A stretch of 64,000 bases of DNA from a virus. The first letter of the stretch is position 1; every line of letters begins with the position of its first letter. A program made the translations under genes and the position numbers. The notes under the pieces are model-generated. The model worked only from the letters and a program-made list of their open reading frames with translations. It did no database searches and was not told the origin of the DNA. The stretch lies in IMG/VR virus record IMGVR_UViG_3300009503_000020, positions 56,718 through 120,717 of that record; one strand, given 5' to 3'. Below, in pieces: positions 5,669 through 57,321 of this stretch.

Positions 5669-5825
5669 GTGCTTTGGAGAATATGGTACTAGATTAGATT
5701 GCAAAGAATGTCCTCAGAGCCTAGCATGCAGAAACTTTTCTCACAGTTTACAAGAAGGCTTATATCTCCGAAACAAGACCAAATACAAAGGAAGAGGGAA
5801 GACTAGAAGAAAAGATAAGTATTAG
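5610..5825 (+). CDS. Small Cys-rich, basic-tailed protein
   Basis: 71 residues, GGAAG just upstream of the start. Cys at residues 15, 21, 31, 34 and 40 include a CKEC motif; the C-terminus is Lys/Arg-rich. A zinc or nucleic-acid-binding role is likely but unproven. It ends 3 bases before the DHH gene. Confidence 0.55.
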   Translation: MESEDTLSEKEKKLCKNNFECFGEYGTRLDCKECPQSLACRNFSHSLQEGLYLRNKTKYKGRGKTRRKDKY

Positions 5826-5828
5826 AGG

Positions 5829-7802
5829 ATGGAAGCTTTGCAGGTATTAAGCAAGAAAGAGATTATGGAATTAAAGAAGAAAATAGAACCTATAAAGAAA
5901 CTAGCTCTGCATGACGATGCAGATGGTGTAACTTCTGCAGTACTTATGTCTTATGTGTTTAAGATAAACAAAGTATGGGCTCCAGATGACTTTGGAGAGT
6001 GGCCTGTTGCTCCTTATAAAGTTCAAGGGCAAGAACAACTAGAGCTTCCACCAGATGTTTGTGTGGATATGGTACCAGCTAATCCTGAATGGGTTGGTTT
6101 AGCAATAGACCACCATCCAAATCACCCTCCTGAAGGAAAGAGAAGTTACCAGCTTATCTATGGAGAAGCACCTGCTTCTGTTATTGTCTATACTCTCTTT
6201 AAAGAATTAATTCCACAAGAACATAGATGGAAAGTAGTAGTTGGCTGCCTGTCCAAGGACACGGAAATACTTACTCCAAGTGGGCAAATTGAAATCAAAG
6301 ATCTTAATACTTTGGATTCTGGAATAGGTCTAGATGAACATGGAAAGCTTTGTAAAAATTTACTGTTTACAATACCTAAAGGACGGAAAGAACTGCTGCG
6401 AATCACTACCAGAAAGAGAGAGATATTAGTAACTCCTGAGCATAGGCTGTTTACACAAAGAGGTCTTGTTGAAGCAAAGGACTTAAATATTGGAGACTAC
6501 TTGGTGGTATACTTGAGGAGTTTAGATGACTTCTCAAAGAAAGTTAGAAGCAAACAGGAAGAATTTAGAGAAAGCACGCCAAGTCTTAAAACTATTAAGC
6601 GGAAATCCCAGCTGGAAGAGCTGGTGGCTTGGGAGAGTGAAAGCATCAATTACAGAAGAGAAAAGACAGAAGCTCAGAGAAGCAGCTATGAAGAATGGAA
6701 CAAGAGAACGAATTCTTCTTCACAATCTCAGTCATCGAGAGACGAGAATGTGCCCAATATGTGGGAAAGAGTTTACGGTAAAGAAATCTTCAAGAAAGAA
6801 ATATTGCTCAATGAGATGCTCAGGCAAAGCAAACTTGAAGAACCTTGGCAAATATACAGGTTCACACAGTGGGCGAGAAAACCCAAATTGGAAAGGTGGA
6901 ACTTCAGCCAAGCCATATCATTGGGAAATGAAGAAAAAAGAATGGAGAAACCTTTTGTATCAGAAGGTCGGGTACAAATGTCAACTTTGTGGCAACAAAG
7001 GCAAACTCAACATTCATCACATAAACAGAGACAAGATGGATGGAAGGCCAGAGAATTTGCTTATACTCTGCCCAAGTTGTCATTTAAAAGTTCACAAATT
7101 GGTTTGGAAAGGATTGAAAGCATAGACTATGAGGGCAGAGAAGAAGTATTTGACATACACTGGGCCTCTACCAACAATTTCTTCTTAGCTAATGGAATTC
7201 TTTCCCACAATTGCGTTGGAGACGGACAACCAGAACTTATACCTCCAGAGATATGGAGAGAATTTCCTATCTTACTGGAAGAGTCTGTTACTCCAAGAGA
7301 GAGATATGGAAAGCTAGAGACTTCTAATTATCCTCTGTATTTAAGATTAAGTTCAGGCATCAATGCAGTATGTAAGATACCTGAGAAATGGTACGTAGGA
7401 TATGCTATATTACGCAATGCAAAGTCACCTTGGGATCTAATCAATGATTCCTCTCTTAAGTCTGCTAAAGAACTTGTTGAGAGTGAAAGAGAAAGGATCT
7501 ACAGGGAGACAAGTCCCATACAACTCAGAAATGGAATAAGAGTCTGGGCGTTCCAGTCTGAGACCAAGATAGAGAGAACTCTAGCTTGGGAAATGTGGGA
7601 TACTGACAAACGCACTATTGTAGCTATAAACTCTGCTACTGGAAGAGGTAGCATAAGAGGTACATTAGCTACTTTAGTGTATGAGCATTTGACTGCTCAT
7701 GGTTTCAAGGCAAGTGGACATCCAGGGTTTGGAGGTTTAAAACTTAAACCTGACCAGACTTGGGAGGATGTGTACCACTGTCTTGCAAATCTAAAGATTT
7801 AA
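5829..7802 (+). CDS. DHH-family phosphoesterase containing an intein
   Basis: 657 residues, of which 140-461 are an intein; the spliced protein would be 335 residues. Family motifs are HDDADGVTSA (28-37), IDHH (93-96), the Asp of CVGDG (462-466) right after the intein, and GHPGFGG (630-636) in the DHHA1-like end. DHH proteins (RecJ, GdpP, Orn-like and archaeal GAN relatives) use Mn ions to cleave phosphodiesters. In this operon, before SSB and RadA, a RecJ/GAN-like nuclease role is plausible, but a nucleotide phosphodiesterase cannot be excluded. The intein sits beside a conserved catalytic motif, as inteins often do. The gene contains a second, out-of-frame gene (6526-7125). Confidence 0.85.
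   Translation: MEALQVLSKKEIMELKKKIEPIKKLALHDDADGVTSAVLMSYVFKINKVWAPDDFGEWPVAPYKVQGQEQLELPPDVCVDMVPANPEWVGLAIDHHPNHPPEGKRSYQLIYGEAPASVIVYTLFKELIPQEHRWKVVVGCLSKDTEILTPSGQIEIKDLNTLDSGIGLDEHGKLCKNLLFTIPKGRKELLRITTRKREILVTPEHRLFTQRGLVEAKDLNIGDYLVVYLRSLDDFSKKVRSKQEEFRESTPSLKTIKRKSQLEELVAWESESINYRREKTEAQRSSYEEWNKRTNSSSQSQSSRDENVPNMWERVYGKEIFKKEILLNEMLRQSKLEEPWQIYRFTQWARKPKLERWNFSQAISLGNEEKRMEKPFVSEGRVQMSTLWQQRQTQHSSHKQRQDGWKAREFAYTLPKLSFKSSQIGLERIESIDYEGREEVFDIHWASTNNFFLANGILSHNCVGDGQPELIPPEIWREFPILLEESVTPRERYGKLETSNYPLYLRLSSGINAVCKIPEKWYVGYAILRNAKSPWDLINDSSLKSAKELVESERERIYRETSPIQLRNGIRVWAFQSETKIERTLAWEMWDTDKRTIVAINSATGRGSIRGTLATLVYEHLTAHGFKASGHPGFGGLKLKPDQTWEDVYHCLANLKI
6246..7211 (+). other. Intein inside the DHH phosphoesterase
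   Basis: 322 residues (966 bases). It begins with Cys in CLSKDTEI (block A), has LVTPEHRLFT (block B, with the TxxH residues), ends the N-terminal Hint part at LNIGDYLVV, and resumes with VFDIHWASTNNFFLANG (block F) and SHN followed by Cys (block G). All splicing blocks are in one frame. The 200 residues between the two Hint halves are polar and low-complexity (Ser/Gln/Arg/Glu) with no endonuclease motif in this frame; the HNH gene is in the +1 frame over the same bases. Confidence 0.92.
6526..7125 (+). CDS. HNH homing endonuclease nested out of frame in the intein
   Basis: 199 residues, read in the +1 frame relative to the intein. GAGGAG lies 5 bases before its ATG, so it can be translated on its own. 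It has a zinc knuckle (CPIC with a later CSMRC), a NUMOD3-like motif (SGRENPNWKGG), and an HNH domain: CQLC, NIHHINRDKMDGRPENLL, CPSCHLKVH. These match freestanding phage-type HNH homing endonucleases, which cut intein- or intron-less alleles to spread their host element. The start follows Hint-N by a few codons and the stop (TAG at 7123-7125) lies just before block F, exactly the site where in-frame inteins carry their endonuclease domain. Confidence 0.9.
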   Translation: MTSQRKLEANRKNLEKARQVLKLLSGNPSWKSWWLGRVKASITEEKRQKLREAAMKNGTRERILLHNLSHRETRMCPICGKEFTVKKSSRKKYCSMRCSGKANLKNLGKYTGSHSGRENPNWKGGTSAKPYHWEMKKKEWRNLLYQKVGYKCQLCGNKGKLNIHHINRDKMDGRPENLLILCPSCHLKVHKLVWKGLKA

Positions 7803-7807
7803 ATAGC
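7797..7807 (+). promoter_or_regulatory. Probable TATA promoter for the SSB-like gene
   Basis: GATTTAAATAG overlaps the stop of the DHH gene; the TATA box (7798-7806) is about 40 bases before the ATG at 7847. GGAGGA follows at 7832-7837 as ribosome binding site. Confidence 0.5.
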
Positions 7808-7846
7808 CCAGACAAAGAAATAAAATAAAATGGAGGAATAGGAAAG

Positions 7847-8956
7847 ATGGACAAGAAAGAGGAAGAAGCTCTGTTAAAGGCTTTTTCTAAGTCTACTGGT
7901 AAAACAGTTGCTCAGTTGAGACCACTGCTTGAGAAAGCTAAACAAGAAGCAAAAGAACTAGGCTCTGCAGACAATGACAATATAATCAAAGGTAGATTCA
8001 GAAGGAAAGTAAGTGCTCTACTTTTTGCAGAGAGAACAGGGAAGCCAGTAGCAAGAAAAGAACCTGTAGTTTTCAGAGGATTCCTGTTAGGTGCAGATGC
8101 AATTAGAGACATCAAAGAACAGATGAGAAGGAAAGCACTGAGATACTTTGATGAAGAAGGAGAGAATGCAAGGATAGAAGGTTATGTGGATGAAAATGGA
8201 ACTCCGCTTGACTGGAGACCTACAATTAGAAACAGACGGGGAGAAGAAGTAGAGAACCCTGATTTCCATAAGCCAATTATAGGACATAGATATGTCAGAG
8301 ATATCTTTGGTATAGTTAAGAAGGAAGGAGATGAGAAAGCAAAGCTGTTCCAAATGACTCTGTGGGGAGGATTTGCTTCTAAGTTCACTTATAGACCTTT
8401 TACTCCAGTAGAGTTCAAAGCTACTATCAAAGCAGAGGGAAGCCACTACATTCTCAACCCACCTAGAGTACAGAAAGGAGAGAAAGGATTCAAGAGTATA
8501 ACTATGGATATAAACTATGAACAGTGGATAAGAGAAGCGTTAGGTTCTAGAGAATACACACTAGATAAACTAGAGAAAGCAGTTGCAGATACTAAGAATG
8601 CTAAAGATCCTTGGATAATGGTCACAGGAATTGTGGACTTCATAGACCCGGAGATTAACCCAAAGACAGGTTCTAGAAATATCACAATAGTAGATGTAGA
8701 CTCAGGAATGACAGACACAGTAAGAGTTTTCATACCTAAAGACTTCCCACTAGCATTCAGAGAATATTCAAAGGTAATTGTCTTTGGTAGACCTAGATCT
8801 TGGAAGAGAGATGACGATACTGAAGAACACTACTCTATCAATGGAATAAGTGTTTATCCAATACCAGGAGAGACAGTAGAAGCACCAGTAGAAGCAAGTA
8901 AACCAGCTAGAGAAACAGAAACTAGTGAAGAGGAAGGATGGGATCTCTGGGAGTAA
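7847..8956 (+). CDS. Single-stranded DNA-binding (OB-fold, RPA-like) protein
   Basis: 369 residues. The N-terminus is helical, the centre is beta-rich with likely OB folds (DPWIMVTGIVDFIDP near 255 and SRNITIVDVDSG near 277), and the end is a flexible acidic tail finishing EEEGWDLWE. An acidic aromatic tail is a hallmark of SSB proteins. It lies directly before RadA and after the DHH enzyme, as expected of an SSB working in replication and recombination. It has its own TATA box. A perfect stem-loop overlaps its stop codon. The call rests on architecture and context, so it is moderate. Confidence 0.65.
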   Translation: MDKKEEEALLKAFSKSTGKTVAQLRPLLEKAKQEAKELGSADNDNIIKGRFRRKVSALLFAERTGKPVARKEPVVFRGFLLGADAIRDIKEQMRRKALRYFDEEGENARIEGYVDENGTPLDWRPTIRNRRGEEVENPDFHKPIIGHRYVRDIFGIVKKEGDEKAKLFQMTLWGGFASKFTYRPFTPVEFKATIKAEGSHYILNPPRVQKGEKGFKSITMDINYEQWIREALGSREYTLDKLEKAVADTKNAKDPWIMVTGIVDFIDPEINPKTGSRNITIVDVDSGMTDTVRVFIPKDFPLAFREYSKVIVFGRPRSWKRDDDTEEHYSINGISVYPIPGETVEAPVEASKPARETETSEEEGWDLWE

Positions 8957-13703: not shown

Positions 13704-14142
13704 TTTTCCTTGTAGAGCATTTAGAGAGAACAGAGTTGTTTTCTCTAGAGAAGAATTAATAATGAGACTTAATGAAGCTAATGAGGCAGGGAAGAGTTGT
13801 GAGGTAGGGTTCTATGCATTCTCTACTTGGATAAACTTAGAACCAGTCAAAGAGAGTGTAGTGCTAGACAAAGTCATCTATACAGGAAAGCAAGAAACTT
13901 TAGAGAAGCTAGCAGAGAGAAAGCTAAGAGAAGGAAAAGAGTCTGTGCTTATATGGGATGGAGAGAGATACCTATTATTTGTAAGAGAAGAAGTAGATTC
14001 AATAGAAGGACTAGCAAAGAAGAAAGAGCCAGGAGCAGATGTAATAACTAATATAGAGGGCAAATTCACGTTCCCAGGCTTTAGGAATCTTAAAAGTGGT
14101 CAAATGAGCAAGATAATCAAGAAGTGGAGATTCAATGACTAA
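13696..14142 (+). CDS. Hypothetical protein coupled to polymerase gene
   Basis: 148 residues from a GTG at 13696 with GGAGGAAAGG just upstream; a TTG at 13669 lacks a binding site. It overlaps the polymerase stop by 8 bases. The protein is alpha/beta with a central helical Lys/Glu stretch and an IWDGERYLLFV strand. Its place next to polB suggests a replication role, perhaps a small accessory or primase-like factor, but no primase motif is visible. Confidence 0.65.
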   Translation: MLSFPCRAFRENRVVFSREELIMRLNEANEAGKSCEVGFYAFSTWINLEPVKESVVLDKVIYTGKQETLEKLAERKLREGKESVLIWDGERYLLFVREEVDSIEGLAKKKEPGADVITNIEGKFTFPGFRNLKSGQMSKIIKKWRFND

Positions 14143-15178
14143 AGTCTGTTGGATATCTGATTTTCCTCTCAGAGGCAGTTCTTTTGGTAATGTAACTTAT
14201 GAATTGCTTACAAGGATGCCTAAGGATTACTACTTTGAAGTGCTTAGTCTAGGATATGAAGGTATGCCTCTTAAACTAACAGATAACATAAGAATATTTG
14301 AATTGAAGAAGGCCTATCAGTTAAGGTATTACTACTCTAAGTTTAAACCAGATACAACTGTAGTATTTCATTCATTCTGGTTACTTAACTCAATTGCAAA
14401 TGAAATGGAAGCAATGACAGGTAAGAAGATCCTATACATACCAGTAGAGGGAGAAGAGGTTCCTTTTGAATATAGAAAACACTTCTTCTATTTTGACACT
14501 ATAGCAACACCTTCTGAATACTCCAGGAAAGTTTTAAAGAAATCAGGAATAAATGCAAGTGTAGTTCCTCATGGAGTAGATACTGCATTCTTCACACCTA
14601 AACCTAAAGTATGGCATGAGTTTAGATTTGGATATCTAGGACTAAATGACATTAGGAAACAGGTACCAAGAGTAATGGAAGCATATGCCAGACTTGGACA
14701 AGGGACTCTTGTAATTGCAGCAGAGAAAGAAGGACATTATGACTTGCCTAACCTAGCTAAGCAATACAATATATCTCCTATATTTGTAGAAGCTAAGTTG
14801 AATGGTCTAACTCTCAATAGAGAAGCAGTTAGAGACTTCTTGCAATCTCTAGATGTATACATTTCACCTGCATCAGAATCATTTGGCTTACCTGCATTAG
14901 AAGCACAAGCTTGTGGCATCCCAGTTATAGCTCTTGAACATGGAGCATCTAAAGAAGTCTTAGGCAATGGAGCAGTGTACTGTGGAGTAGCTGATCTCTT
15001 AGAGACAAGTATAGGAAAGATAGGTCTGATATCTGTCTCTGATCTATATAGGAAGATGAGATTCCTTATTCAAGTAAAAGAAGCTTATGAGAAGACAGCA
15101 AGTAAAGCTCTAGCTAATGCTCAGAACTGGACTTGGGAAAATGCTGTAAAGAAACTAACAGAGGTATTAGAGTCATGA
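14135..15178 (+). CDS. GT4-family glycosyltransferase
   Basis: 347 residues, GT-B fold. The donor-binding half shows VVPHGVDTAFF near 148 and SESFGLPALEAQACGIPVI near 250, with the paired Glu of retaining GT4 enzymes. The N-terminus (SSFGNVTYELL) is the acceptor side. It transfers a sugar from a nucleotide sugar. It starts inside the end of the previous gene. Substrate unknown; likely part of the glycan cluster that continues to 21.8 kb. Confidence 0.9.
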   Translation: MTKVCWISDFPLRGSSFGNVTYELLTRMPKDYYFEVLSLGYEGMPLKLTDNIRIFELKKAYQLRYYYSKFKPDTTVVFHSFWLLNSIANEMEAMTGKKILYIPVEGEEVPFEYRKHFFYFDTIATPSEYSRKVLKKSGINASVVPHGVDTAFFTPKPKVWHEFRFGYLGLNDIRKQVPRVMEAYARLGQGTLVIAAEKEGHYDLPNLAKQYNISPIFVEAKLNGLTLNREAVRDFLQSLDVYISPASESFGLPALEAQACGIPVIALEHGASKEVLGNGAVYCGVADLLETSIGKIGLISVSDLYRKMRFLIQVKEAYEKTASKALANAQNWTWENAVKKLTEVLES

Positions 15179-15549
15179 ACTTAGAAGGTATTAATTTGAA
15201 AGGAGTAAAACATCTAGATGCTAGGTTAAGAAAAAAGAAGAACAGTCTCAACTTAGAAGAAATGTGGCAAAGAATCCTTGGCTCAGGTTACTATCAGCCA
15301 TTCTGTCCTCTTTGTGGTGAGCCATTGAAATTAACTGATTGCACAATAGAGTATGAACTTGCTCCGGGCTTAGGAAAGAAACATTTCTTGTGGCATTTAA
15401 GGACAGCTACACCTACAATAATAGTTAAACTTAGATGTCTTCACTGTAATGTAGAGATAAAAGGACAAGGTTATGGACTTTCTTATGACAGTGAAGGAAT
15501 AGCCTTTGAATCTCTGCGTATGACTTCTATAGATAAAAAGGAGGAATGA
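15175..15549 (+). CDS. Zinc-ribbon hypothetical protein
   Basis: 124 residues from the ATG at 15175, which overlaps the glycosyltransferase stop (ATGA). CPLC and CLHC, about 45 residues apart, could form a zinc ribbon between beta strands. Function unknown. Confidence 0.65.
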   Translation: MNLEGINLKGVKHLDARLRKKKNSLNLEEMWQRILGSGYYQPFCPLCGEPLKLTDCTIEYELAPGLGKKHFLWHLRTATPTIIVKLRCLHCNVEIKGQGYGLSYDSEGIAFESLRMTSIDKKEE

Positions 15550-15827
15550 AATTGGAAGAAAAGAAAGAAGACAAAGTAAGATATGTGCAAGGTTGGCGTT
15601 GTGAGTTCTGTGGAGAAATATATTCTACTAAAGAAGAAGCAGAGACATGTTGGGAGAGACATGTACAGTTTGAGATACAGCCACTGTTCTCATTAAATGA
15701 AGAGTTCCCTACTGAAGTCCTAGTAAAGAAAATAGAGGGTAACTACTACACTGAAATAGCAACATATGAACTAGCTAAGAAAGAGAAAGTAAGCATCGAA
15801 AGGAAAGTGAGAAAAGAAGATGAGTAA
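15546..15827 (+). CDS. Small C2H2-like zinc-finger protein
   Basis: 93 residues. CEFC at 19-22, then C35 and H39 (ETCWERH) form a C2H2-like finger of the kind common in archaeal viruses. GGAGG is only one base from the ATG, so a TTG six bases on (15552) may be the true start. Its end overlaps the next gene. Possibly a DNA-binding regulator. Confidence 0.65.
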   Translation: MKLEEKKEDKVRYVQGWRCEFCGEIYSTKEEAETCWERHVQFEIQPLFSLNEEFPTEVLVKKIEGNYYTEIATYELAKKEKVSIERKVRKEDE

Positions 15828-17106
15828 ACCAACAGAAGCTAAGGTAATAGAACAAACTATAGCTCAAGATATAAAAGAGAATCGTACTTGGAGAGACATG
15901 AGAATACTATGGCATTCAGTAGCACCTTATATCAATTCTGGCTATGGCACTGTTACTCGTGAGTTTATGACAAGACTTTTGAATAAAGGCTTTGTAGGCT
16001 TCATATCAGCATATTATGGAATACAACCAGGAGGAATGTTAAATTGGCATGGACTATATGTCCTACCAGTTCAAAAGACTTCTTCAGATCAACTAGGATT
16101 TGAATCTGCTATTGAACACTACAAAAGATTCAAGTGTGACCTGGGAGTTTTTCATGCTGACTTTTGGGTATCATATCAGTTTGCTAAGAAGATACCTTAT
16201 ACTCTCTGTTACTCCCCTATAGATCATGAACAGTATCCTGATAAATGGTTAGAAATCTTAAGGACTTACAAGTGGGTAGCTGTTCCTTCACGACATGCTG
16301 AGAAGGAACTAAAGAAATCAGGGATAGAAGCAACCTTTGTTCCTCATGGTGTAGATATAAAAGAATATCATCCACTAGATAAAAAGACAAGCAGGCAAGC
16401 ATTCTCACTAAATCCAGAAGACTTCATAATTGGAATAGTTGCAGCTAACAACGATGAGGAGACCAGAAAAGCTTGGGATGCTAATTTCTTGGCAGTTAAG
16501 TACTTCCTTGATAACAATCCAGATGCTAAGAAAGATGTAAAAGTAGTGATACATACAGACCCTACTAATGAAAGAGGGAGAAACCTCTATGAACTAGTTG
16601 ATCAAGTAGGAATAGGAGAACAAGTTATTTGGAATGACCGCTACTTTGCTTCTCTTTTGACATTTCCTTCTTCAGTAATGTGTAAGCTATACAACTGTTT
16701 TGATGTGTTTCTCTTGTTATCTAGGAGAGAAGGATTCTGCATTCCTGCACTTGAAGCACAAGCATGTGGAGTACCTTGCATACTTAATGACTTCTCTGCA
16801 CTCTCTGAAAGAAATGACTATGGTAGAGTAGGGTGGCTAGTAAAACCGAGTGCACTAGTCTATTCTCCACTGAATGCAATTACTTCTATTCCTGATCCTT
16901 ACGGAGGGGCGAAGGCTCTTGAAGAAGCATACAATAATGAATCTAAGAGAAAGTTGTATGCAAAGAGATCACTTGAATATGCTAGACAACAGACATGGGA
17001 TATAGCTATTGACAAGTACATGATGCCTCTTCTAGAGAGAATAGGAGAAGAAATTCCTTCTCTAACAAGTAGAAAGGAGGCTAGAAAGATTGCAGGAAAC
17101 ACCTAG
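15820..17106 (+). CDS. GT4-family glycosyltransferase
   Basis: 428 residues, GT-B fold. Near the N-terminus is RILWHSVAPYINSGYGTVT; the donor half has FVPHGVDIKEYHP and SRREGFCIPALEAQACGVP. It is clearly a paralogue of the minus-strand glycosyltransferase at 56152-57321, which has nearly the same N-terminal stretch. It overlaps both neighbours by a few bases. Acceptor and sugar unknown. Confidence 0.9.
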   Translation: MSKPTEAKVIEQTIAQDIKENRTWRDMRILWHSVAPYINSGYGTVTREFMTRLLNKGFVGFISAYYGIQPGGMLNWHGLYVLPVQKTSSDQLGFESAIEHYKRFKCDLGVFHADFWVSYQFAKKIPYTLCYSPIDHEQYPDKWLEILRTYKWVAVPSRHAEKELKKSGIEATFVPHGVDIKEYHPLDKKTSRQAFSLNPEDFIIGIVAANNDEETRKAWDANFLAVKYFLDNNPDAKKDVKVVIHTDPTNERGRNLYELVDQVGIGEQVIWNDRYFASLLTFPSSVMCKLYNCFDVFLLLSRREGFCIPALEAQACGVPCILNDFSALSERNDYGRVGWLVKPSALVYSPLNAITSIPDPYGGAKALEEAYNNESKRKLYAKRSLEYARQQTWDIAIDKYMMPLLERIGEEIPSLTSRKEARKIAGNT

Positions 17107-17911
17107 AGTAATGATATGTCTACTAGTTAAGAATGATGCCAAGCATCTTCCTCAATTTCTGAATGCAATGAAGAACTTAGACTATCCAAAAGACAAACTT
17201 AGATGGATATGGATATATGGTAAGTCTGTTGATGACACCCTGGACATCATTCTTGAGTTTCATAAGAAAGAACCTTATAAGTATGAAGTCTATGAAGAAC
17301 CTGTCTTTGAGAGACTACTACCAAATGCCCTTTATGTTGCTAGACTCTGTAATGAATTTAAGAAGATGTATCAAGGAGAAGAGTATGTTCTCTTTGCTGA
17401 CTCTGATATAGTAGAAATGCCTCCTGAGACACTAAAAGAACTGATAAGAGTAGATAAGGACATAGTAGCTCCTTATGTGTACAGAAGAACTTCAGATGGA
17501 GAGGAGTTCTTCTATGACACCTATGTCTTTCGTTGGCATGGTTGGAAGTTTGAACATGTAGAATGTAAAGGAGTTGTATATGGCTATGAAAAACCAGTAT
17601 TTGCTAATGAAAAGCAACCTGTTGAATTAGATTCAGTAGGAACATTTCTCTTGATCAAAGGAGAAGTGTTCAAGAAAGTTGATTGGGATAATCCAGCTCC
17701 ACACTTACAATTCTGTAAGAATGCTAGGAAAGCAGGATATAAAGTGTGGGCTCTCCCATATCTTAAAATATACCATGCAGATGTGACTCAAGAAGAGTCA
17801 CCACACTACTCATTAGAATGGTATGCACAACACGATATGATACCCTTTGAGGAACTATACAAGGTCGGATATGTGAAGAAAGGAGGAAAACTTGTTCTGG
17901 AGACGTGGTAG
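17090..17911 (+). CDS. GT2-like (GT-A fold) glycosyltransferase
   Basis: 273 residues from TTG at 17090 with AGGAGG about 8 bases upstream. VMICLLVKNDAKHLPQFL at the start and YVLFADSDIV near residue 105 (the DxD metal site) indicate a GT-A enzyme, close to GT2 or Anp1/GT62-like forms. It would transfer one sugar from a nucleotide sugar, with metal. Overlaps the previous gene by 17 bases. Confidence 0.85.
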   Translation: MQETPRVMICLLVKNDAKHLPQFLNAMKNLDYPKDKLRWIWIYGKSVDDTLDIILEFHKKEPYKYEVYEEPVFERLLPNALYVARLCNEFKKMYQGEEYVLFADSDIVEMPPETLKELIRVDKDIVAPYVYRRTSDGEEFFYDTYVFRWHGWKFEHVECKGVVYGYEKPVFANEKQPVELDSVGTFLLIKGEVFKKVDWDNPAPHLQFCKNARKAGYKVWALPYLKIYHADVTQEESPHYSLEWYAQHDMIPFEELYKVGYVKKGGKLVLETW

Positions 17912-17938
17912 TTTGGACAAGAGAAAGGAGGGAAAAAA

Positions 17939-18382
17939 ATGAGACCTAAGGAGCAGATCCTTCAGTTCTTACAAGAAAAAATACAAGATAGTAATTGCAG
18001 TTTGTTAGATGTAGGTGCAGGAGAAGATTTTGTTAGGAATGTATTTATTAACACAGTTAGTTTGGACATTAGAGGTAAACCAGATGTGAAAGCTGATGCT
18101 CACTTTCTTCCTTTTAAATCTAATAGTTTTGATTATGTCATAGGCATATCTGTAATAGAGCATTTAGAGAATCCTGCTATAGCAGTGAGAGAAATGCTAA
18201 GAACAGCAAGAATAGCCGTTATCCTTTGGACTGATTTTACACAACACGATATGGAAGCTGATCCTGAACATAAGTATTGCTGGACACCTAAAGTCTTCCA
18301 GCAGTTTCTTAACATGTTTGGTTATCAATCTAAAGCAGAAGTGTGGAGAGACTTTGCACTTGTTGGAATCATATGGAAGTGA
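17939..18382 (+). CDS. Small class I SAM-dependent methyltransferase
   Basis: 147 residues. LLDVGAGE (22-29) is motif I; LPFKSNSFDYVIGISVIEHL is the typical motif II/III region. The fold is nearly minimal, so the substrate is probably small. In this cluster a sugar or glycan methyltransferase is likely. GGAGGG lies before the ATG. It overlaps nothing upstream but runs close to the next start. Confidence 0.82.
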   Translation: MRPKEQILQFLQEKIQDSNCSLLDVGAGEDFVRNVFINTVSLDIRGKPDVKADAHFLPFKSNSFDYVIGISVIEHLENPAIAVREMLRTARIAVILWTDFTQHDMEADPEHKYCWTPKVFQQFLNMFGYQSKAEVWRDFALVGIIWK

Positions 18383-18386
18383 GAAA

Positions 18387-19130
18387 ATGAAAACAGTAGT
18401 CTTGATAACTGGTGGAACGAAAGGAGTTGGAAAGTGGATAGCAGAGGATTTTGCTAAATCTTTATCAGAAGTTGTCTTAGTGCTGAACTATAAATCAGAC
18501 TATGGCACAGCACTCCAGACTGAGGAAGAATTAAGACAGATGAGTAATGCAGAAATAATGTTATACAAAGCAGACATAAGAAACGAAGATGAAGTAGAGA
18601 AGATGGTAGATGTAATTATAAAGACTTATGGAAAGATAGATGTGCTGATAAACAATGCTGGTGTAAACAAGGATGCTGTTACTTGGAAAATGGAGAAGAA
18701 AGATTGGGATGAAGTCATAAATACTAATCTCACAGGAGCATTCTTATGTACCAAACACGTATTGCCACACATGAGACAAGCTTGCTTTGGAAGGATAATC
18801 AATATCTCTTCTGTTGTTGGACAAATGGGAGTCTTTGGAACATGTGCTTATTCAGCAACAAAAGCAGGACTTATAGGATTTACTAAGACAGTAGCTAAAG
18901 AAGTAGCAAATAAGAATATAACGGTGAACTGCATTGCATTAGGATATGTTCAGACAGGAATGAGTATGAGAATAGATGAAGAGTTAAGGAAAGCTTATGA
19001 GAAGAATATTCCTTTAGGAAGATTTGCTACTAAAGATGAAGTTACTGGGATTGTGCTATTTCTATGTTCAAAGGAAGCTAGTTACATAACAGGACAAGTA
19101 ATCAATGTAAATGGCGGGTGTTATATGTGA
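18387..19130 (+). CDS. Short-chain dehydrogenase/reductase (FabG-like)
   Basis: 247 residues from the ATG at 18387. LITGGTKGVGK (NAD(P) binding), NNAG, and catalytic Ser, Tyr and Lys (SSVVGQ...YSATKAG) are all present, and it ends with the family's INVNGG motif. Classical FabG-like reductases act on ketoacyl or keto-sugar substrates. Between a methyltransferase and an acyltransferase, it could make a hydroxyacyl group or reduce a sugar. The upstream extension only shadows the methyltransferase gene. Confidence 0.9.
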   Translation: MKTVVLITGGTKGVGKWIAEDFAKSLSEVVLVLNYKSDYGTALQTEEELRQMSNAEIMLYKADIRNEDEVEKMVDVIIKTYGKIDVLINNAGVNKDAVTWKMEKKDWDEVINTNLTGAFLCTKHVLPHMRQACFGRIINISSVVGQMGVFGTCAYSATKAGLIGFTKTVAKEVANKNITVNCIALGYVQTGMSMRIDEELRKAYEKNIPLGRFATKDEVTGIVLFLCSKEASYITGQVINVNGGCYM

Positions 19131-19705
19131 TGAACAAACTAGGAATGAAATACTACACAGAAGATGAACTTAGAAAGATGGGCTTCAAGTCAGTAGGAAA
19201 AGATGTACGAGTAGGAACTAGGGCTATTATTCGAGACCCTTCCATAGTCTCAATTGGAAACCATGTAGCAATAGATGACTTTGTTGTTATTCTAACAACA
19301 GTTGATATAGGTAATTATGTACATATAACAAGATTCACAAGCATCTCTGGTTCTAGAGATAGTTACTGTAAAATAAGTGATTATGCTGGCATTTCTGAAA
19401 GATGCTCCTTAATATGTGGTACAGATGACTTCTCTGGAGAATATCTTGCTAACCCAACTATACCGATAAAGTATAGGAAAGTGACTAATGGTAGGATAAT
19501 ACTTGAGAAGTATGTACAACTAGGAGCCAATGTAACTGTACTTCCAAACGTGACTATAGGAGAAGGTACTGCAGTAGGGGCATGCTCTCTTGTAACTAAA
19601 AGTCTAGACCCATGGGGTATCTATATAGGAATCCCGGTCATAAGGAAAAAAGAAAGAAGTAGACAGATGGTTGAATTAGCTAAAGATTTGGAGGCAAGTA
19701 AATAA
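19130..19705 (+). CDS. Hexapeptide-repeat acyltransferase
   Basis: About 191 residues from the ATG at 19130, overlapping the SDR stop (TGATG). Repeated I-G-N/E hexapeptides (VSIGNHVAIDDFVV, VDIGNYVHI, VTIGEGTAVGA) make a left-handed beta-helix. Members move acetyl or other acyl groups from CoA to sugars, often to the amino group made by a DegT-type aminotransferase; such a gene follows next. N-acylation of an amino sugar is the best guess. Confidence 0.85.
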   Translation: MNKLGMKYYTEDELRKMGFKSVGKDVRVGTRAIIRDPSIVSIGNHVAIDDFVVILTTVDIGNYVHITRFTSISGSRDSYCKISDYAGISERCSLICGTDDFSGEYLANPTIPIKYRKVTNGRIILEKYVQLGANVTVLPNVTIGEGTAVGACSLVTKSLDPWGIYIGIPVIRKKERSRQMVELAKDLEASK

Positions 19706-19725
19706 GAAACTAGAAGGGATTAGAA

Positions 19726-20805
19726 ATGAAGAAACAAATACACTGGGCTGAACCTAGAATAGAGGAAGAAGAAATAGAAGCTGTCAAGGAAGCAGTTAAG
19801 TCTACTTGGATAGGAGGAAATGGACCTCTAGTTAGGCAATTTGAAAAAGAACTAAGTTCTCTTCTTGGAGTTAAGTATGCAATTGCAGTCAATAATGGTA
19901 CATCTGCTTTGCTATGTGCTATGCAAGCATTGAGAGAAGCTAAGTATCCAATGAGATTTCTAGTTCCTACACTAACCTTCTTTGCTACTGGAGCTACTGT
20001 ACATGAGATGAGTGAGAAAGGACTGTCTTATCTTATAGACTGTGATAGGAAGACATTCAATATACTAACAGACTTAAGCTTCTACAGAGGAGTACCAATA
20101 GTAGTTCCAGTTGATGTAGGTGGACTTCCTGTAGACTATGATGAACTAAGAAAGAATGAGAAGATAATGCTAGCTGACTCTGCTGAAGCATTAGGATCTA
20201 AATACAAAGGAGAATATGTAGGAAAGCAAGCAGACATTCACACATTCAGTTTCCACTCTGCTAAAGTAATAACTACTGGAGAAGGAGGAGCAATAACTAC
20301 TAATAACAAAGAACTTTATGAGATGATGAAGTCTATTGCTAATCAAGGATATGGAAAGAAAGAGTGGTATGAATATAGGCATGAAAGAATAGGTTTCAAT
20401 TATAGAATGCCTGAACTTCAAGCAGCACTAGGTCTAGTCCAGTTAAAGAAACTAGACAGGTTCGTTAGAGAACGAAATGAGAAGGCTAAGACATATAAAG
20501 ACATCCTTGGAGACTTAGTAGAGTATCAGCATGTGCCTAAATGGGCAACACACAACTACTTCTTGTTTATTATACTAGTTAAGAACAATGTGAAACTTTG
20601 TCAGGAACTTAAGAAAGAAGGAATAGAAACTAAGACGATGTGGATACCTCTTCACAAACAACCTCCATTTGACAGGAATGCACATCTTGAAAATGCAGAA
20701 GAGGTAGCTAACCATGGATTAACACTTCCTATACATAACAATCTGTCTGAAGAAGATGTGAAGGAAATAGCTCAAGTAGTAAGGAGACTGATCAAGAATG
20801 AGTGA
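19726..20805 (+). CDS. DegT/DnrJ/EryC1/StrS nucleotide-sugar aminotransferase
   Basis: 359 residues, full length for the family. Signs are TWIGGNGPLVRQFE at the start, NNGTSAL (phosphate binding), DSAEALGSKY, and the PLP lysine in FSFHSAKVITTGEGG. The family puts an amino group from glutamate onto a 3- or 4-keto nucleotide sugar (for example perosamine or PseC-type sugars). With the epimerase and acyltransferase beside it, an N-acylated amino-deoxysugar is likely. Confidence 0.93.
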   Translation: MKKQIHWAEPRIEEEEIEAVKEAVKSTWIGGNGPLVRQFEKELSSLLGVKYAIAVNNGTSALLCAMQALREAKYPMRFLVPTLTFFATGATVHEMSEKGLSYLIDCDRKTFNILTDLSFYRGVPIVVPVDVGGLPVDYDELRKNEKIMLADSAEALGSKYKGEYVGKQADIHTFSFHSAKVITTGEGGAITTNNKELYEMMKSIANQGYGKKEWYEYRHERIGFNYRMPELQAALGLVQLKKLDRFVRERNEKAKTYKDILGDLVEYQHVPKWATHNYFLFIILVKNNVKLCQELKKEGIETKTMWIPLHKQPPFDRNAHLENAEEVANHGLTLPIHNNLSEEDVKEIAQVVRRLIKNE

Positions 20806-21763
20806 TCTGAAAGGTAGTAATGTGCTAGTGACTGGTGGAGCAGGTTTCATAGGATCTTCATTAGTTAGACAACTAGAGAAGTTGAATTGTCATATTATAG
20901 TACTAGATAATCTTATTGCAGGAAGAAAAGAAAACTTAGAAGGAACAAAGGCTGAACTAATAGAAGGAGACATAAGAAACCAAGAACTGTTGACTTACAT
21001 CCTTAACAAGAATAGTATAGAATATGTATTTCACTTGGCTGCTGAACCTTACATACCTAAAGGATATCAGAACCCTAATGTTATGTTTGAAGTGAATACA
21101 CTAGGGACAATGAAAGTTCTTCTTGAAAGTAAGAAAGCGGGAGTAAAAAGAATTCTGCACTACTCCACTTCAGAGGTATATGGCACAGCAAAGTATCTTC
21201 CAATGGATGAAAATCATCCCTTGTTGCCTCATAGTATCTATGCTGTATCTAAGCTAGCAGCAGACAGGTCAGCTTTTATTCTCTGGAAGGAAAAGGGAGT
21301 TCCTGTTGTAATCTTAAGACAATTTAATTGCTTTGGCCCAAGAGAGTGTCAACCTTACATTATTCCAGAGATTATCTCTCAATTTATCCACAAAGGACCT
21401 ATCCTCACTCTAGGCAATATAGATGCAAGACGAGACTTTACTTTTGTAGATGATGCTTCTCTAGGTGCTGTTAAACTAATGCAAGTTCCTGATATTGAGG
21501 GAACAGTAGTAAACTTAGGAAGAGGACTAAACTGGTCTGTAAAGGAAATAGCACAGAACATTGCAGAAGTGCTTAGTACAACTAATTGGGGCATACAAAT
21601 AGATAGCAATAGGTTAAGACCTTATGATGTAGATGAGCTTCTCTGCAATAATTCCTTCTTTAATCAACTAACTGGTGGTCTAGAATTCACAGACTTCAAA
21701 GAAGGACTCAAGAAAACTATTGAATGGTACAGAAGCAATGGAGCAAGGTGGAGTTGGGAATAG
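20798..21763 (+). CDS. NAD-dependent nucleotide-sugar epimerase/dehydratase
   Basis: 321 residues. VTGGAGFIGSSLV binds NAD, STSEVYG and YAVSK supply the Ser/Thr-Tyr-Lys set, and DFTFVDDA is a typical late motif of extended SDRs. It may epimerise or dehydrate a nucleotide sugar, giving the keto sugar for the aminotransferase. Overlaps that gene by 8 bases. The exact reaction (GalE-, RmlB- or GMD-like) is not fixed. Confidence 0.92.
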   Translation: MSDLKGSNVLVTGGAGFIGSSLVRQLEKLNCHIIVLDNLIAGRKENLEGTKAELIEGDIRNQELLTYILNKNSIEYVFHLAAEPYIPKGYQNPNVMFEVNTLGTMKVLLESKKAGVKRILHYSTSEVYGTAKYLPMDENHPLLPHSIYAVSKLAADRSAFILWKEKGVPVVILRQFNCFGPRECQPYIIPEIISQFIHKGPILTLGNIDARRDFTFVDDASLGAVKLMQVPDIEGTVVNLGRGLNWSVKEIAQNIAEVLSTTNWGIQIDSNRLRPYDVDELLCNNSFFNQLTGGLEFTDFKEGLKKTIEWYRSNGARWSWE

Positions 21764-22360: not shown

Positions 22361-22678
22361 ATGGATAAAGTGTTTGAAATTTTAAAGAAGCACTTCAGTG
22401 AACTTAGAAAATATCCTAATGTGCTGAATGCTAATGTAGGAGAAGAAATAACTAAAGGAAAGAGGACTGGAAGGAAAGCAATTGTTGTCTTTGTTTCTCA
22501 GAAGAAACCACTGTCAGCCTTACCTATAAATGCTAGACTTCCAGATGAAGTAGAAGGAGTTCCAGTTGATGTTGTTGAATGGAAAGCAGACTATAAGTTA
22601 GGAGACACTGCTCCTTCCCATTTAGACCCTGAAACACAGCATAGGATTTCAAGTGGTGTTAGACATGGGAAACAGTGA
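22361..22678 (+). CDS. Peptidase pro-domain-like protein
   Basis: 105 residues from the ATG at 22361 (AGGTGA upstream). The pattern of a conserved N-terminal strand, KGKRTGRKAIVVFVSQKKP, then LPDEVEGVPVDVVE resembles the N-terminal domain that precedes the catalytic part in some secreted serine and cysteine peptidases. It overlaps the papain-like gene by up to 26 bases in another frame, so the two look like a pro-domain and a catalytic domain split into separate genes. The inhibitory role is inference. Confidence 0.55.
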   Translation: MDKVFEILKKHFSELRKYPNVLNANVGEEITKGKRTGRKAIVVFVSQKKPLSALPINARLPDEVEGVPVDVVEWKADYKLGDTAPSHLDPETQHRISSGVRHGKQ

Positions 22679-23408
22679 TTGGAGACCGTTCTGTTCTCCT
22701 ATTCGTGATCAGGGTTCATGTGGTTCCTGCACTGCCTTTGGAACAATTGGGGCCTGGGAGACTTGCATAAGAATAGCAGAAAACAATCCAAATGATCCAA
22801 TAGACTTGAGTGAGAGAGACTTGTTTGTTTGTTCAGGAGGATATTGTGCACTTGGCAATACAATGGAGAATGTACTCAACAAAGCCTTGAGTGGAGTGGC
22901 TTTAGAAAGTTGTTGCCCTTATGATGGACTAGATCATCTCTGTGGAGAAGGTCGTTGCCCTGACTGGACTAAGACAGGGAAGAGACTAAGGTCCTACAGA
23001 GAAGTAACTGAAAGAGAAGAAATGAAACAGTTGTTAAACAAAGAAGCTCTTGTAGGAGTAATGACAGTCCACCAATCATTTATTAACTATAAAGAAGGAG
23101 TTTATCACAGTCTTGGAGACACAGATCCTATATTAGGTGGACATGCTATTGCAATTGTTGGCTATAGTGATGATTTGCAAGCTTGGTTGGTCAGAAACTC
23201 CTGGGGCACTTCTTGGGGTATGGAAGGTTATGCTTGGGTAGCTTATGGTGATAGTGAGATAGACCAAATAATGTATGAGATTATACCTGATGGACCTATA
23301 AACCCAGTTCCAAGTCCATGCAAGCTAGGAAATGCTATTGCTAAATTCTTGAACTTCTTTGCTTGGTTGTTTCATAGAGAGGGAAGATTTTTCTATCTAA
23401 ACCCATAA
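22665..23408 (+). CDS. Papain-like (C1A) cysteine peptidase
   Basis: About 247 residues from the ATG at 22665; GTG codons at 22653 and 22656 are alternatives. The catalytic set is complete: Gln and Cys in SPIRDQGSCGSCTAF, His in GGHAIAIVGY, Asn in VRNSWGTSWG. A hydrophobic stretch near the C-terminus (IAKFLNFFAWLF) may bind membrane. There is no signal peptide. C1A enzymes are rare in archaeal viruses; possible roles are virion maturation, lysis or attack on host surface proteins. Confidence 0.9.
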   Translation: MGNSDWRPFCSPIRDQGSCGSCTAFGTIGAWETCIRIAENNPNDPIDLSERDLFVCSGGYCALGNTMENVLNKALSGVALESCCPYDGLDHLCGEGRCPDWTKTGKRLRSYREVTEREEMKQLLNKEALVGVMTVHQSFINYKEGVYHSLGDTDPILGGHAIAIVGYSDDLQAWLVRNSWGTSWGMEGYAWVAYGDSEIDQIMYEIIPDGPINPVPSPCKLGNAIAKFLNFFAWLFHREGRFFYLNP

Positions 23409-45171: not shown

Positions 45172-47280
45172 TTAACTCTCCTGTGCCTTCAGCCACTTCT
45201 CTATGAGTTCTAGCTTCTTCTTTTTCAACTCTAGTTCAATCTTTCTCTCTTCAGGAGTCTTACTTCTCTTCTTAAGCTCATCATCTATTATCTTTGCTAG
45301 AGCTTCATCCTCCATGCTTAGGTGTTTCTTTCTGATAAGTTCACCTTCCCACTTGTGTAGCCCTTGTTTCTTTATCCACTGTGTTGCTTGTTCAACTGTC
45401 CATTCATCTGAGAACCTTACTCTAGATACTCTAGCTCCATGAATTGTCCCTGGTCTAGGATACAAACATACTAGTACTTCTAGAACTTGCTTGGGTGCAT
45501 CCTTCAATTCTGGAATGTAGTCTTCAGGATTGTCTACACATCTGGAGAATGCCTTCTGGTCATATATCTCTAACCAGAAGTAGTTCCAACCCTCTTTCTT
45601 TTCAACTTTGAATGGTATGTAGTAGTCACCTTTAGTAGGATCTCCACTCCTAGCTAATGCGTGAGGAAGCTTAGCTCTCTCAAGTACTCCTCCTCTTCCT
45701 TCTTTATTGATATAAACATAGTATCCTTTCAACTTATTGCCATGAAATATCATTGAGATGAAGTTAGGAGGAGACATATCTATCAAGTTAACTGTACCTT
45801 CATCCACTGGAGTAACATAAGTAACTAGATCTCCTACCATCATCTTAGTCTTAGGCTTATCTATAGCCATCCACTTCTGTATATCTCTGCATATCTTCCA
45901 GACTGCCTTAGCTGATTCTCCTTCTTGAGTCATTTCAGAAGGATCAGCATAGACATTGAATTCAAAACCTTCAGAGATACGGATATCCCAGTGTTTTTTC
46001 AAACCTTCAGGAGTTTCTATCTCATGAATCTGCAAGACAAACTTAGCTTCTTTTAACTCCTCTGCACTTAGTTTCTCTATTGTATAAATAGATGACCCTT
46101 CCTCTTCCTGGGTAATAGTGAACTCTCCTTTCATTTCCTTACCTTTGAAATCTGCTCTTATCAGCTCAGCTCCTTCTTCAGTCTCTCTTTTGAGAGTGAC
46201 TGTTCCTTGATCAACTATTTGCATCTTAGCTGTAAGAGTCTTAGAGGGATTGTACTTAGTGAGGGGAGGAATATCACCTTCATAGTCAAACCACTTCTTA
46301 TCAACAGTCCCTTCATATTCAAGAGGAACAGGAGAGAATCTAGTGAAATCTAAATCAGAAGACCAAGAGTATACCTTGTCTCCTTCTTTAATTCTTAGGA
46401 ACCACTTCTGATGAGGGATTCCTCTAACTACTATTTGTCCCATATAAGAGAGATACTGAACAGTAAACCTAGTTGCTGCTTCTTCTTCCTTAGACTTAAT
46501 ACCTTTCTCCCATGCCTCTTTAACCCATTTCTCCCACTCTTTGTATAGCTCACCTGTTCTCCAATCAGGAGGAACTGGAATGTAACCTTTAGGAGGAACC
46601 CACTTCTTCTTGAAACCTCTAGCTAGACAGTAAGGAGTTTGATCTCCAGGAACTAAGACTCTCCACATTAGTTCAGTTCCTGGTCTTGGTTTTTTCGTTT
46701 CAGGATCAATAACTTGTACATTAACTGCTCTCACAACTACTCTTGTCCAGTCACCACCAAAAGGACCCTCATTGTTGTCACTCTTCAAGAAATATTCATG
46801 GAAGTAAGGTTTTTGAACACCAAAGTGTACCCTTCCTTTATCTACTATAACAAATACTCCAGGATATTCTTTAGTTGAGCCTACTTGTCCTGGCTTAACT
46901 ACACCTTCCACTGTTAACCATACTTTAGGTTGCCTCGCCTTTGTCTCTGCTCTGAAACCCTTGTTCTTGTTGTTCTTAGTAAATTCTATTTTTACTTTCT
47001 TAACCATCTCTCTTCCATCTTCAATAGTGTAGCATGTCTTTGGAACTCCTCCTGGAGTTAATACTGTCCAACCTACTAGATGGTCATCAACTTCCATTCT
47101 CCAGTCAGTATGCACAGAGCGCCCTCTGATGTGCCATTGCATAACATATCTCATTTCTTTCTTAGGTGGAGGATATTCCATGTAAGGTGCTAGAAGAGCA
47201 CCTCCTTGCCCTCCCTCTCCTTCTTTTGGAATAGCTTTCATTACTTCTAACCAGTTAATCATGCTACTCTTGATTTTCAT
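45172..47280 (-). CDS. Protein with two LigD-type 3'-phosphoesterase modules
   Basis: 702 residues. Residues 45-65 read MQWHIRGRSVHTDWRMEV and residues near 411-430 read LQIHEIETPEG...HWDIRI; both keep the spaced His, then HxDxR set seen in the phosphoesterase domain of bacterial and archaeal LigD, which removes 3'-phosphate and ribonucleotides at breaks. Several repeated strands (RVHFGVQKPYFHEYFLK, GNKLKGYYVYINKEGRGG) suggest more copies of a related fold. The C-terminus is a Lys/Glu-rich helix. GAGGAG lies 5 bases before the start, which overlaps the ligase gene by 17 bases, so both are made together. Confidence 0.7.
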   Translation of the reverse strand: MKIKSSMINWLEVMKAIPKEGEGGQGGALLAPYMEYPPPKKEMRYVMQWHIRGRSVHTDWRMEVDDHLVGWTVLTPGGVPKTCYTIEDGREMVKKVKIEFTKNNKNKGFRAETKARQPKVWLTVEGVVKPGQVGSTKEYPGVFVIVDKGRVHFGVQKPYFHEYFLKSDNNEGPFGGDWTRVVVRAVNVQVIDPETKKPRPGTELMWRVLVPGDQTPYCLARGFKKKWVPPKGYIPVPPDWRTGELYKEWEKWVKEAWEKGIKSKEEEAATRFTVQYLSYMGQIVVRGIPHQKWFLRIKEGDKVYSWSSDLDFTRFSPVPLEYEGTVDKKWFDYEGDIPPLTKYNPSKTLTAKMQIVDQGTVTLKRETEEGAELIRADFKGKEMKGEFTITQEEEGSSIYTIEKLSAEELKEAKFVLQIHEIETPEGLKKHWDIRISEGFEFNVYADPSEMTQEGESAKAVWKICRDIQKWMAIDKPKTKMMVGDLVTYVTPVDEGTVNLIDMSPPNFISMIFHGNKLKGYYVYINKEGRGGVLERAKLPHALARSGDPTKGDYYIPFKVEKKEGWNYFWLEIYDQKAFSRCVDNPEDYIPELKDAPKQVLEVLVCLYPRPGTIHGARVSRVRFSDEWTVEQATQWIKKQGLHKWEGELIRKKHLSMEDEALAKIIDDELKKRSKTPEERKIELELKKKKLELIEKWLKAQES

Positions 47281-56151: not shown

Positions 56152-57321
56152 CTAAGCTATCTTATTTAAGCCTTTATTGGTCAAATCTTTGAGGAGAGGA
56201 AGCCATTTTGAAGTAACTATTTTATTCCAATCAAAAGACTGAGCAAACTGTATAGAAGCTTGTGAATAAGTCTCTCTTAATTCTTTATTAAAGTAAGCTT
56301 CTTCTATCTTCTTAGTTAGATCTTCTCTGTCAACTCGTTGGCATTTCCAACCTCTAGGAGTAAAAACAGTTTCACCCATCTTGACTAACCAACCATGTCC
56401 TTTTACAATCTCTGGTAATGCTGAAGAGTCCGAAGCTATAACAGGAACACCACAAGCTTGAGCTTCAAGAACTGGTAGACAGAAACCTTCACGTCTTGAA
56501 GCATTGACTAAGACATCAAAACAAGAGTACAACTTTGCCATTTCAAGATCAGGAAGACCAACCATCTGAGGAAGGTGCTCAGGAAATATCACATGCTTTT
56601 CAAGATTAAGCTTCTTGGCTACTTCAACTAAGTTATATCCTCTAGAATCAGAAGGTTTAGTGTAAGCAAATATCATCCATTTCTTAGATTCACTAGGAAA
56701 CTCTTCTTTAAACTTAGAGAATGCAAGGAACATGTCATCCCATCCTTTCCTCGGTTCAGGATCACTATTAGCAGCCACTATGCCAAAGAAGAATTTATCT
56801 TGCTTGAGGTTGAAGAGTTTCCTACTTTCCTCTTTCGGATATGGTTTAAAGGCTTGCAAGTCTACTCCATGTGGTATTACTGCAGTAGGTTCTCTCTTTG
56901 CTAATTTTCGGTAGACTCTAGCTCCAAACTCAGAGCAAGGTACAAAGTAAGAAAAGGATTTCATAGTAGTAATGTCTTCAGGAGAATAGTCAAAAGAATC
57001 TACAGGACCATAAAACATTGAGTGTGGAAGAAGAGAGAACCAACGAAATGGCCAGAAGTCTGAGGCTAGAATAGGTAGATCAATATTGAACTTCTTAATA
57101 TAGTGTTCAACAGAGTATCTTCCCCACTCTTCCTCAGCTGTAGGAATCACTCTTACTCCAGAAATTCTAAGAGAAGCTCCTGGATGCAAACCATAGTATG
57201 TTGAAATGACTAGAGGAAACTGCTGGGCTAACCTGAGGGCAATATTTTTGGTTACAACCCCATATCCAGAAGCAACAAAAGGAGCAACTGAATGCCAAAG
57301 AATTCTAAGTTCCTTTACCAT
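56152..57321 (-). CDS. GT4-family glycosyltransferase in virion module
   Basis: 389 residues. LRILWHSVAPFVASGYGVVT at the start, AVIPHGVDLQAFKPY near 150, and SRREGFCLPVLEAQACGVPVI near 275 give a complete GT-B, GT4 enzyme. It is a paralogue of the plus-strand enzyme at 15820-17106. Encoded among virion genes, it probably glycosylates a capsid, fibre or adhesin protein; this is inference. Overlaps the small gene before it by 7 bases. Confidence 0.9.
   Translation of the reverse strand: MVKELRILWHSVAPFVASGYGVVTKNIALRLAQQFPLVISTYYGLHPGASLRISGVRVIPTAEEEWGRYSVEHYIKKFNIDLPILASDFWPFRWFSLLPHSMFYGPVDSFDYSPEDITTMKSFSYFVPCSEFGARVYRKLAKREPTAVIPHGVDLQAFKPYPKEESRKLFNLKQDKFFFGIVAANSDPEPRKGWDDMFLAFSKFKEEFPSESKKWMIFAYTKPSDSRGYNLVEVAKKLNLEKHVIFPEHLPQMVGLPDLEMAKLYSCFDVLVNASRREGFCLPVLEAQACGVPVIASDSSALPEIVKGHGWLVKMGETVFTPRGWKCQRVDREDLTKKIEEAYFNKELRETYSQASIQFAQSFDWNKIVTSKWLPLLKDLTNKGLNKIA

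Follow-up and report, generated by a model that had tools for sequence, protein, structure and literature searches.

A 64,000-nucleotide stretch of viral DNA (the window), corresponding to positions 56,718 to 120,717 of the 120.7-kb IMG/VR record IMGVR_UViG_3300009503_000020, contains a gene for a DHH-type protein that is interrupted by an intein. Within the intein, and in the +1 frame relative to it, lies a second gene, which encodes a predicted HNH homing endonuclease (Table 1). A complete HNH gene placed out of frame inside a contiguous intein is what a preliminary description of this DNA had proposed, and the proposal is borne out by the two open reading frames (ORFs), 5829-7802 and 6526-7125, and by their Pfam, TIGR and PHROG matches.

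The assignment of the intein is supported by profile matches and by sequence hallmarks alike. PF14890 (Intein_splicing) matches the 5829-7802 ORF at 5.7e-16, above the cut-off, and TIGR01445 (intein_Nterm) and TIGR01443 (intein_Cterm) both score above cut-off in the same frame of that ORF. With both splicing regions thus in one frame, one also finds a nucleophile at position 1, the TxxH of block B, the His-Asn pair and a Cys at +1. The ORF is single and unbroken over its 657 aa, as opposed to the separate ORFs that hold the halves of a fractured or split intein, and the HNH gene lies in the +1 frame, as opposed to the in-frame fusion of a canonical intein with a homing endonuclease (HEN).

The insertion occupies a conserved site and is missing from close relatives. 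Two viral loci, L011 and L012, have this gene at 73% identity but with the site empty, and the RadA proteins of these relatives are 76-77% identical to that of the window virus. Where L011 and L012 read VVVG/AVGDG (the slash marks the site), the window reads VVVG-intein-CVGDG, the +1 residue going from A to C. In both relatives a large ribonucleotide reductase-like ORF lies upstream of the DHH gene (L011:4402-7494; L012:4985-7075); it is not at that place in the window. As for the interrupted protein, the HDDADG and DHH motifs in the 5829-7802 product were recognised by eye. Pfam gave no match for its DHH-type part, and a single-protein scan of IMG/VR gave no match for either the complete DHH-intein product or its extein, nor was there one in the phage collection upon searching with the extein. 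A group I or group II intron at the insertion was considered and rejected: Rfam, searched at E up to 1 over 5700-7900, gave no match, and hence no known intron, and the host frame continues through.

The nested ORF matches Pfam HNH at 1.2e-5, above the cut-off, and the HNH endonuclease family PHROG 1271 at 5e-23. The core of the AlphaFold model is confident (pLDDT 85-90 in parts) and matches the HNH folds of Cap5, DotN and McrA, with the H, N and C columns invariant among relatives. An AGGAG lies 5 bases upstream of the nested ATG, and comparable motifs are seen at several other genes of the window virus. The gene had been described as stopping just before block F of the intein; it does end near the C-terminal Hint part, but the stop codon (7123-7125) already falls within the coding sequence of the first C-terminal Hint strand (LERIESI), such that the overlap reaches ~20 bases into the folded intein. 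Codon usage in the Hint parts and in the nested HNH gene departs in a common direction from that of the remaining genome, which is consistent with their having been acquired as one unit.

Table 1. Features of the interrupted DHH-type gene, by position in the window
Feature	Position	Strand	Description	Basis
DHH-type host gene, including intein	5829..7802	+	657 aa, one frame	Spliced product compared with intein-less L011/L012 genes, 73% identity
N-extein coding part	5829..6245	+	Ends ...KVVVG	Aligned to empty-site relatives
Intein	6246..7211	+	322 aa; Cys1 ... His-Asn, then Cys+1	PF14890, TIGR01445, TIGR01443, solved mini-inteins 4o1r and 6qaz
Hint N-terminal part	6246..6524	+	Blocks A and B, TPEHRLFT	PF14890, TIGR01445/TIGR01443 and 4o1r/6qaz matches
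Putative ribosome-binding site of nested gene	6515..6520	+	GAGGAG	Sequence motif
Stop codon in HNH frame	6523..6525	+	TAG, immediately 5' of the ATG	Sequence; excludes frameshift entry from farther upstream
Nested HNH homing endonuclease ORF (predicted)	6526..7125	+	199 aa, +1 frame relative to intein	Pfam HNH, PHROG 1271, AlphaFold core
Zinc-knuckle part of nested ORF	6751..6822	+	CPICG..C..C	Alignment; weak zinc-ribbon Pfam matches
NUMOD3-like motif	6880..6900	+	NPNWKGG	Conserved in relatives
HNH core	6979..7098	+		Pfam HNH at residues 152-191; beta-beta-alpha in model
Hint C-terminal part	7104..7211	+	Blocks F and G	PF14890, TIGR01445/TIGR01443 and 4o1r/6qaz matches
C-extein coding part	7212..7802	+	Starts CVGDG	Aligned to empty-site relatives

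Openness and selection in the two frames

Across 6526-7125 the intein frame contains no stop codon, while the third frame contains 14. That the intein frame is kept open, and far beyond chance, is confirmed by a calculation in which the HNH protein was held fixed under two codon usages. With the codon usage of the genome, 17.4 stops would be expected in the intein frame where none is observed, and the probability of an open frame is 6.6e-11; with the nested gene's own codon usage it is 7.6e-7. The preliminary description had likewise held that this frame is kept open, and had put the odds for an unselected frame at (61/64)^200, under 1 in 10000. Openness beyond chance stands, and on firmer figures than those odds, but the calculation behind them ignored the fixed HNH protein.

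A low content of T is not the cause. Third-position T is found at 0/77 of the junctions where it would make a stop, as compared with 42/121 harmless junctions (Fisher 7e-11), and the latter value, 35%, matches the rest of the genome. Among 33 other genes of the window, open runs in the other two sense frames reach at most 103 codons. As for what the intein frame encodes here, a comparison with simulated open alternatives gives positive charge below expectation (z -2.4) and no Cys (P 0.085), signals that are too weak after seven tests to support more than openness.

The same overlapping-frame layout is found in 94 viral loci including the window (93 others), 64 of them non-redundant at 90%. The exteins are mostly helicases but belong to at least three families (terminases, helicases and the DHH protein), and three nuclease types and both frame offsets are represented. 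Scanning with the N-terminal Hint region of the window for related inteins gave nests that were confirmed by Pfam matches on both frames: terminases with HNH_3 nucleases (L146, L147, L151 and L152) and helicases with DUF559 nucleases (L142, L144, L153, L161 and L162). The L151 terminase ORF (L151:290-3892) carries two inteins, the first a canonical one with an in-frame LAGLIDADG domain, the second with a nested out-of-frame HNH.

Phage isolates have the layout as well. A search of GenBank phages with the nested nucleases led to helicase-type cases in Vibrio phage CP-T1 (gp10) and relatives, Corynebacterium phage phi673 (gp43) and Pseudomonas phage MR14 (gp44), and to terminase cases in Tetrasphaera phage TJE1 (TerL), Acinetobacter phage Highwayman and Rhodobacteraceae phage LS06-2018-MD07. 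In these isolates the annotated gene and the nuclease are in different frames, and the latter has no annotation of its own; at the phi673, MR14 and CP-T1 nests GenBank gives only a helicase or an undescribed protein. In 40 GenBank phage records a DUF559-type nuclease was matched under a gene annotated as a helicase or left undescribed, the nuclease being unannotated in the seven regions inspected.

A scan for the DUF559-type nuclease, yielding 80 loci, set no condition on the host frame and is free of the bias that arises when loci are selected for openness. The host frame has zero stops in 80/80 of these loci, as opposed to 3-33 in the third frame, and in 78 the nuclease is flanked by both intein halves within a single continuous ORF, contig ends cutting the other two. 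The inteins of these nests are mostly within motif II of helicases of superfamily 2 (SF2), at DE/CHH. Frame offset is constant within each family examined, with helicases shifted one way and terminases the other, which suggests that each nest is old and has been inherited as a unit; the three nuclease types and two offsets, in turn, point to several origins.

The division of labor between the frames is seen upon comparing sister nests by codon-position substitution, a check that had been proposed for the window and that was run on L146/L147 and other pairs. Over the middle 201 codons of L146 and L147, changes at the three nuclease codon positions number 54/46/123, and identity is 62% in the nuclease frame but 34% in the host frame. 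The order is the same in most other pairs, where host-frame identity is close to that of the unused frame. The substitutions in these pairs thus indicate that selection acts on the protein encoded by the nuclease frame, and that in the intein frame it essentially maintains openness.

Interpretation and rival explanations

What is seen in the window, then, is a pair of intact genes, a site that is empty in the relatives and an intein frame that is kept open. We take the feature to be an overlapping-frame mobile intein whose nuclease would be translated by internal initiation, and assign this reading a probability of roughly 0.82. Ribosomes starting at the DHH gene would read the whole intein frame, and the intein would excise itself from the product, thereby restoring the DHH protein. 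The stretch of the precursor that lies opposite the nuclease gene would serve as a polar linker, situated where the Hint fold usually accommodates an endonuclease. A second set of ribosomes would start at the internal AGGAG-ATG (6516-6528), and their product from the +1 frame would be a free HNH endonuclease. This enzyme would cut intein-less DHH genes at VVVG/A, and repair of the break would copy the intein and the nuclease gene together.

Several points weigh against this interpretation. Splicing, internal initiation, cutting and homing are all deduced from sequence. The nest that combines a DHH extein with a NUMOD3-type HNH is known from one assembled record, and the selection pattern comes from its relatives. 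The AlphaFold model of the window intein is poor, with a mean pLDDT of 50.5 from an alignment of only 6 sequences, and ribosome-binding sites at nested starts are only modestly enriched (at least 5 matches in 45% vs 28%). Finally, the pooled figures for the 64 non-redundant nests, with 0 host-frame stops vs 1,108 in the third frame, and with T at 0/3,732 dangerous vs 2,358/9,730 safe junctions in the 58 nests that have the window offset, must be read knowing that this openness is partly by selection, most of the loci having been called nested for being open.

Among the alternatives, the one that fares best, although we consider it improbable, is that the HNH ORF is an untranslated, decaying passenger and that the intein frame alone matters. 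Such a view could draw upon the single copy in one record, for which translation of the HNH is only deduced. Decay, however, is difficult to reconcile with a frame that has no stop where the third frame has 14, with core Cys, His and Asn residues that are intact when set against the relatives, and with the clear purifying selection on the nuclease frame of sister nests. A programmed frameshift from the intein frame, in place of internal initiation, is less probable still. Frameshifts are known in viruses, and an offset that is constant within each family examined would suit such a mechanism, but with a TAG right before the ATG the shift would have to hit that very codon. With this TAG in place and an AGGAG upstream, internal initiation, and not a frameshift from farther upstream, would be the natural route into the nuclease frame.

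We give a shade less credence again to the idea that the intein frame is dead, with the intein being effectively split and spliced in trans, or the protein ending within the overlap, and the openness being due to chance. Nearby sequence space does contain fractured or split forms whose halves have a nuclease between them (L128, L129, L135 and L138), but the openness in the window is far beyond chance, Hint-N and Hint-C are in a single ORF there, and the intein is likewise one ORF in the 78 of 80 DUF559-type loci. The least credible proposal is an assembly or sequencing error, in which two compensating indels at its edges displaced a normally in-frame HNH domain: canonical inteins with a related in-frame HNH at the same place do exist and are alike in size (336, 341 and 308 aa in L017, L111 and L032, vs 322 aa in the window), but an error would not leave 200 codons of a second frame free of stops (P 7.6e-7 to 6.6e-11), would not account for an HNH frame that starts TAG-ATG with a Shine-Dalgarno motif, and would have to have occurred in 93 other loci from independent contigs, including the isolates phi673, MR14 and CP-T1.

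An indel, along with relatives carrying the domain in frame, had been named in the preliminary description as grounds for abandoning its claim, and neither has that effect. The former calls for two compensating errors and leaves both the 200-codon open frame and the 93 other loci unexplained. Relatives of the latter kind do exist (L017, L111, L032/L033 and L133), but they are canonical inteins. Those of terminases and portal proteins (L017, L111 and L032/L033) have in-frame HNH domains that are among the best relatives of the window HNH, at only ~36-40% identity over the matched part.

The further suggestion that the HNH gene invaded a mini-intein in the wrong frame is not supported as stated. 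The best tree weakly places the window HNH with free-standing HNHs, and the approximately unbiased (AU) test gives p 0.33 for its grouping with the in-frame intein HNHs. Among 79 NUMOD3-type HNH loci in IMG/VR, only copies of the ShiLan type, discussed below, are nested out of frame, and all 79 carry stops in the frame equivalent to the window intein frame. When genome contigs were scanned with the HNH alignment, 8 loci were obtained, and in none was the matched stretch nested; the mini-intein matches that were inspected in GenBank phages (terminases) were only ordinary, split or in-frame cases.

The virus itself is probably a tailed virus of an archaeon, judging from a gene content that combines archaeal-type replication genes (Rad51-like RadA, a family-B polymerase and an ERCC4 nuclease) with tailed-virus genes (terminase and capsid). 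Elsewhere in the window, a 1187-aa ORF at 47264-50827 (minus strand) has a metal-dependent hydrolase/RNase Z-like N-terminal part and an ATP-dependent DNA ligase domain, the two being separated by ~500 residues without assignment; the adjoining ORF, 45172-47280, weakly matches a LigD phosphoesterase. A papain-family cysteine protease is encoded at 22653-23408 (plus strand), in company with replication genes of archaeal type in the same virus, and is adjoined by a glycosyltransferase/sugar-nucleotide gene cluster (14135-21763).

Comparison with known systems

In textbooks, the homing endonucleases of inteins are in-frame domains. Intein nucleases have been described as translated in fusion with the intein (PMC3943268) and as occupying one conserved insertion site (PMC6801210), and it is at this site that the nested genes sit. 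The canonical HEN inteins among the relatives (L017 and L111 in terminases, L032/L033 in portal proteins and L133 in a radical SAM protein) have the same Hint fold, the same insertion between blocks B and F, a related NUMOD3-type HNH and a similar size. They differ in that their endonuclease is an in-frame domain, whereas the window nuclease is a separate, out-of-frame gene.

The preliminary description regarded the arrangement as previously unknown and singular. It recurs widely, as seen above, and an out-of-frame HNH without an intein has been published as the ShiLan domain, or Pacc40 gp60 insertion, of phage DNA methylase genes (PMC11855218; also PMC12613952). These authors detected no ribosome-binding site and proposed leaderless translation (PMC11855218). 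The window gene shares with the ShiLan domain a complete out-of-frame HNH in an open host frame and a mobile presence pattern, and ShiLan-type HNHs are among the best phage matches of the window HNH, at 25.8-29.1% identity. The ShiLan domain, however, is without a splicing domain and has the opposite host frame offset, whereas the window HNH is surrounded by a complete intein. Full-text searches of the literature turned up no earlier description of a nuclease gene lying out of frame within an intein, although a preprint whose title refers to a non-canonical architecture of actinobacteriophage inteins (10.1101/2025.01.02.630785) could cover part of these findings. The hosts of phi673 and TJE1 are actinobacteria.

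Fractured genes, in which a free-standing nuclease gene lies between the halves of a split intein, were reportedly described by Dassa and co-workers in 2009, a study cited in PMC3229294 and PMC10448857. Here, too, a nuclease gene with its own start is found between Hint halves, but the intein is broken into two genes, whereas that of the window is one unbroken ORF that overlaps the nuclease gene. Among the viral loci, L128 (2278-5126) and L135 (790-4097) present a half-way form between nested and split inteins: the N-intein half ends at a stop, and an overlapping ORF in a different frame holds the nuclease, an HNH in L135, as an in-frame fusion with the C-half. L138 (940-4188) appears to be a fractured intein with its N-half and C-half in separate ORFs; L129 (1915-4337) appears to be another, in which the N-half is followed by an ORF for a TnsA-like nuclease and no C-half was located.

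Canonical in-frame inteins, nests, L128/L135 and L129/L138 span a range of architectures, within which a nest would offer an easy step between the contiguous form and the split one, in a presumed direction. Tentatively, and at rather less than even odds, we would go further and suggest that overlapping-frame inteins may constitute a widespread and overlooked class of mobile inteins, with several independent origins, that forms a natural bridge from contiguous to fractured split inteins. If this is true, a nest would need to gain only a single stop codon in the intein frame to become a split intein whose halves flank a free nuclease gene, and nests would make the origin of split inteins testable. 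With a whole nuclease gene sharing its DNA with the intein, the splicing and nuclease functions would be separated at the level of the reading frame, and nests supply alignments of overlapping genes that are both natural and deep, and in which one of the two frames has no constraint beyond openness.

The helicase inteins with a nested DUF559-type nuclease (phi673 gp43, MR14 gp44 and CP-T1 gp10) have the same layout and the same offset as the window, and their host frame is always open. They differ from it in a nuclease that is DUF559/Vsr-like and not HNH, and in an extein that is an SF2 helicase, cut in motif II at DE/CHH. Alongside them, the nested gene of the window belongs to a recurrent, little-noticed architecture of mobile inteins.
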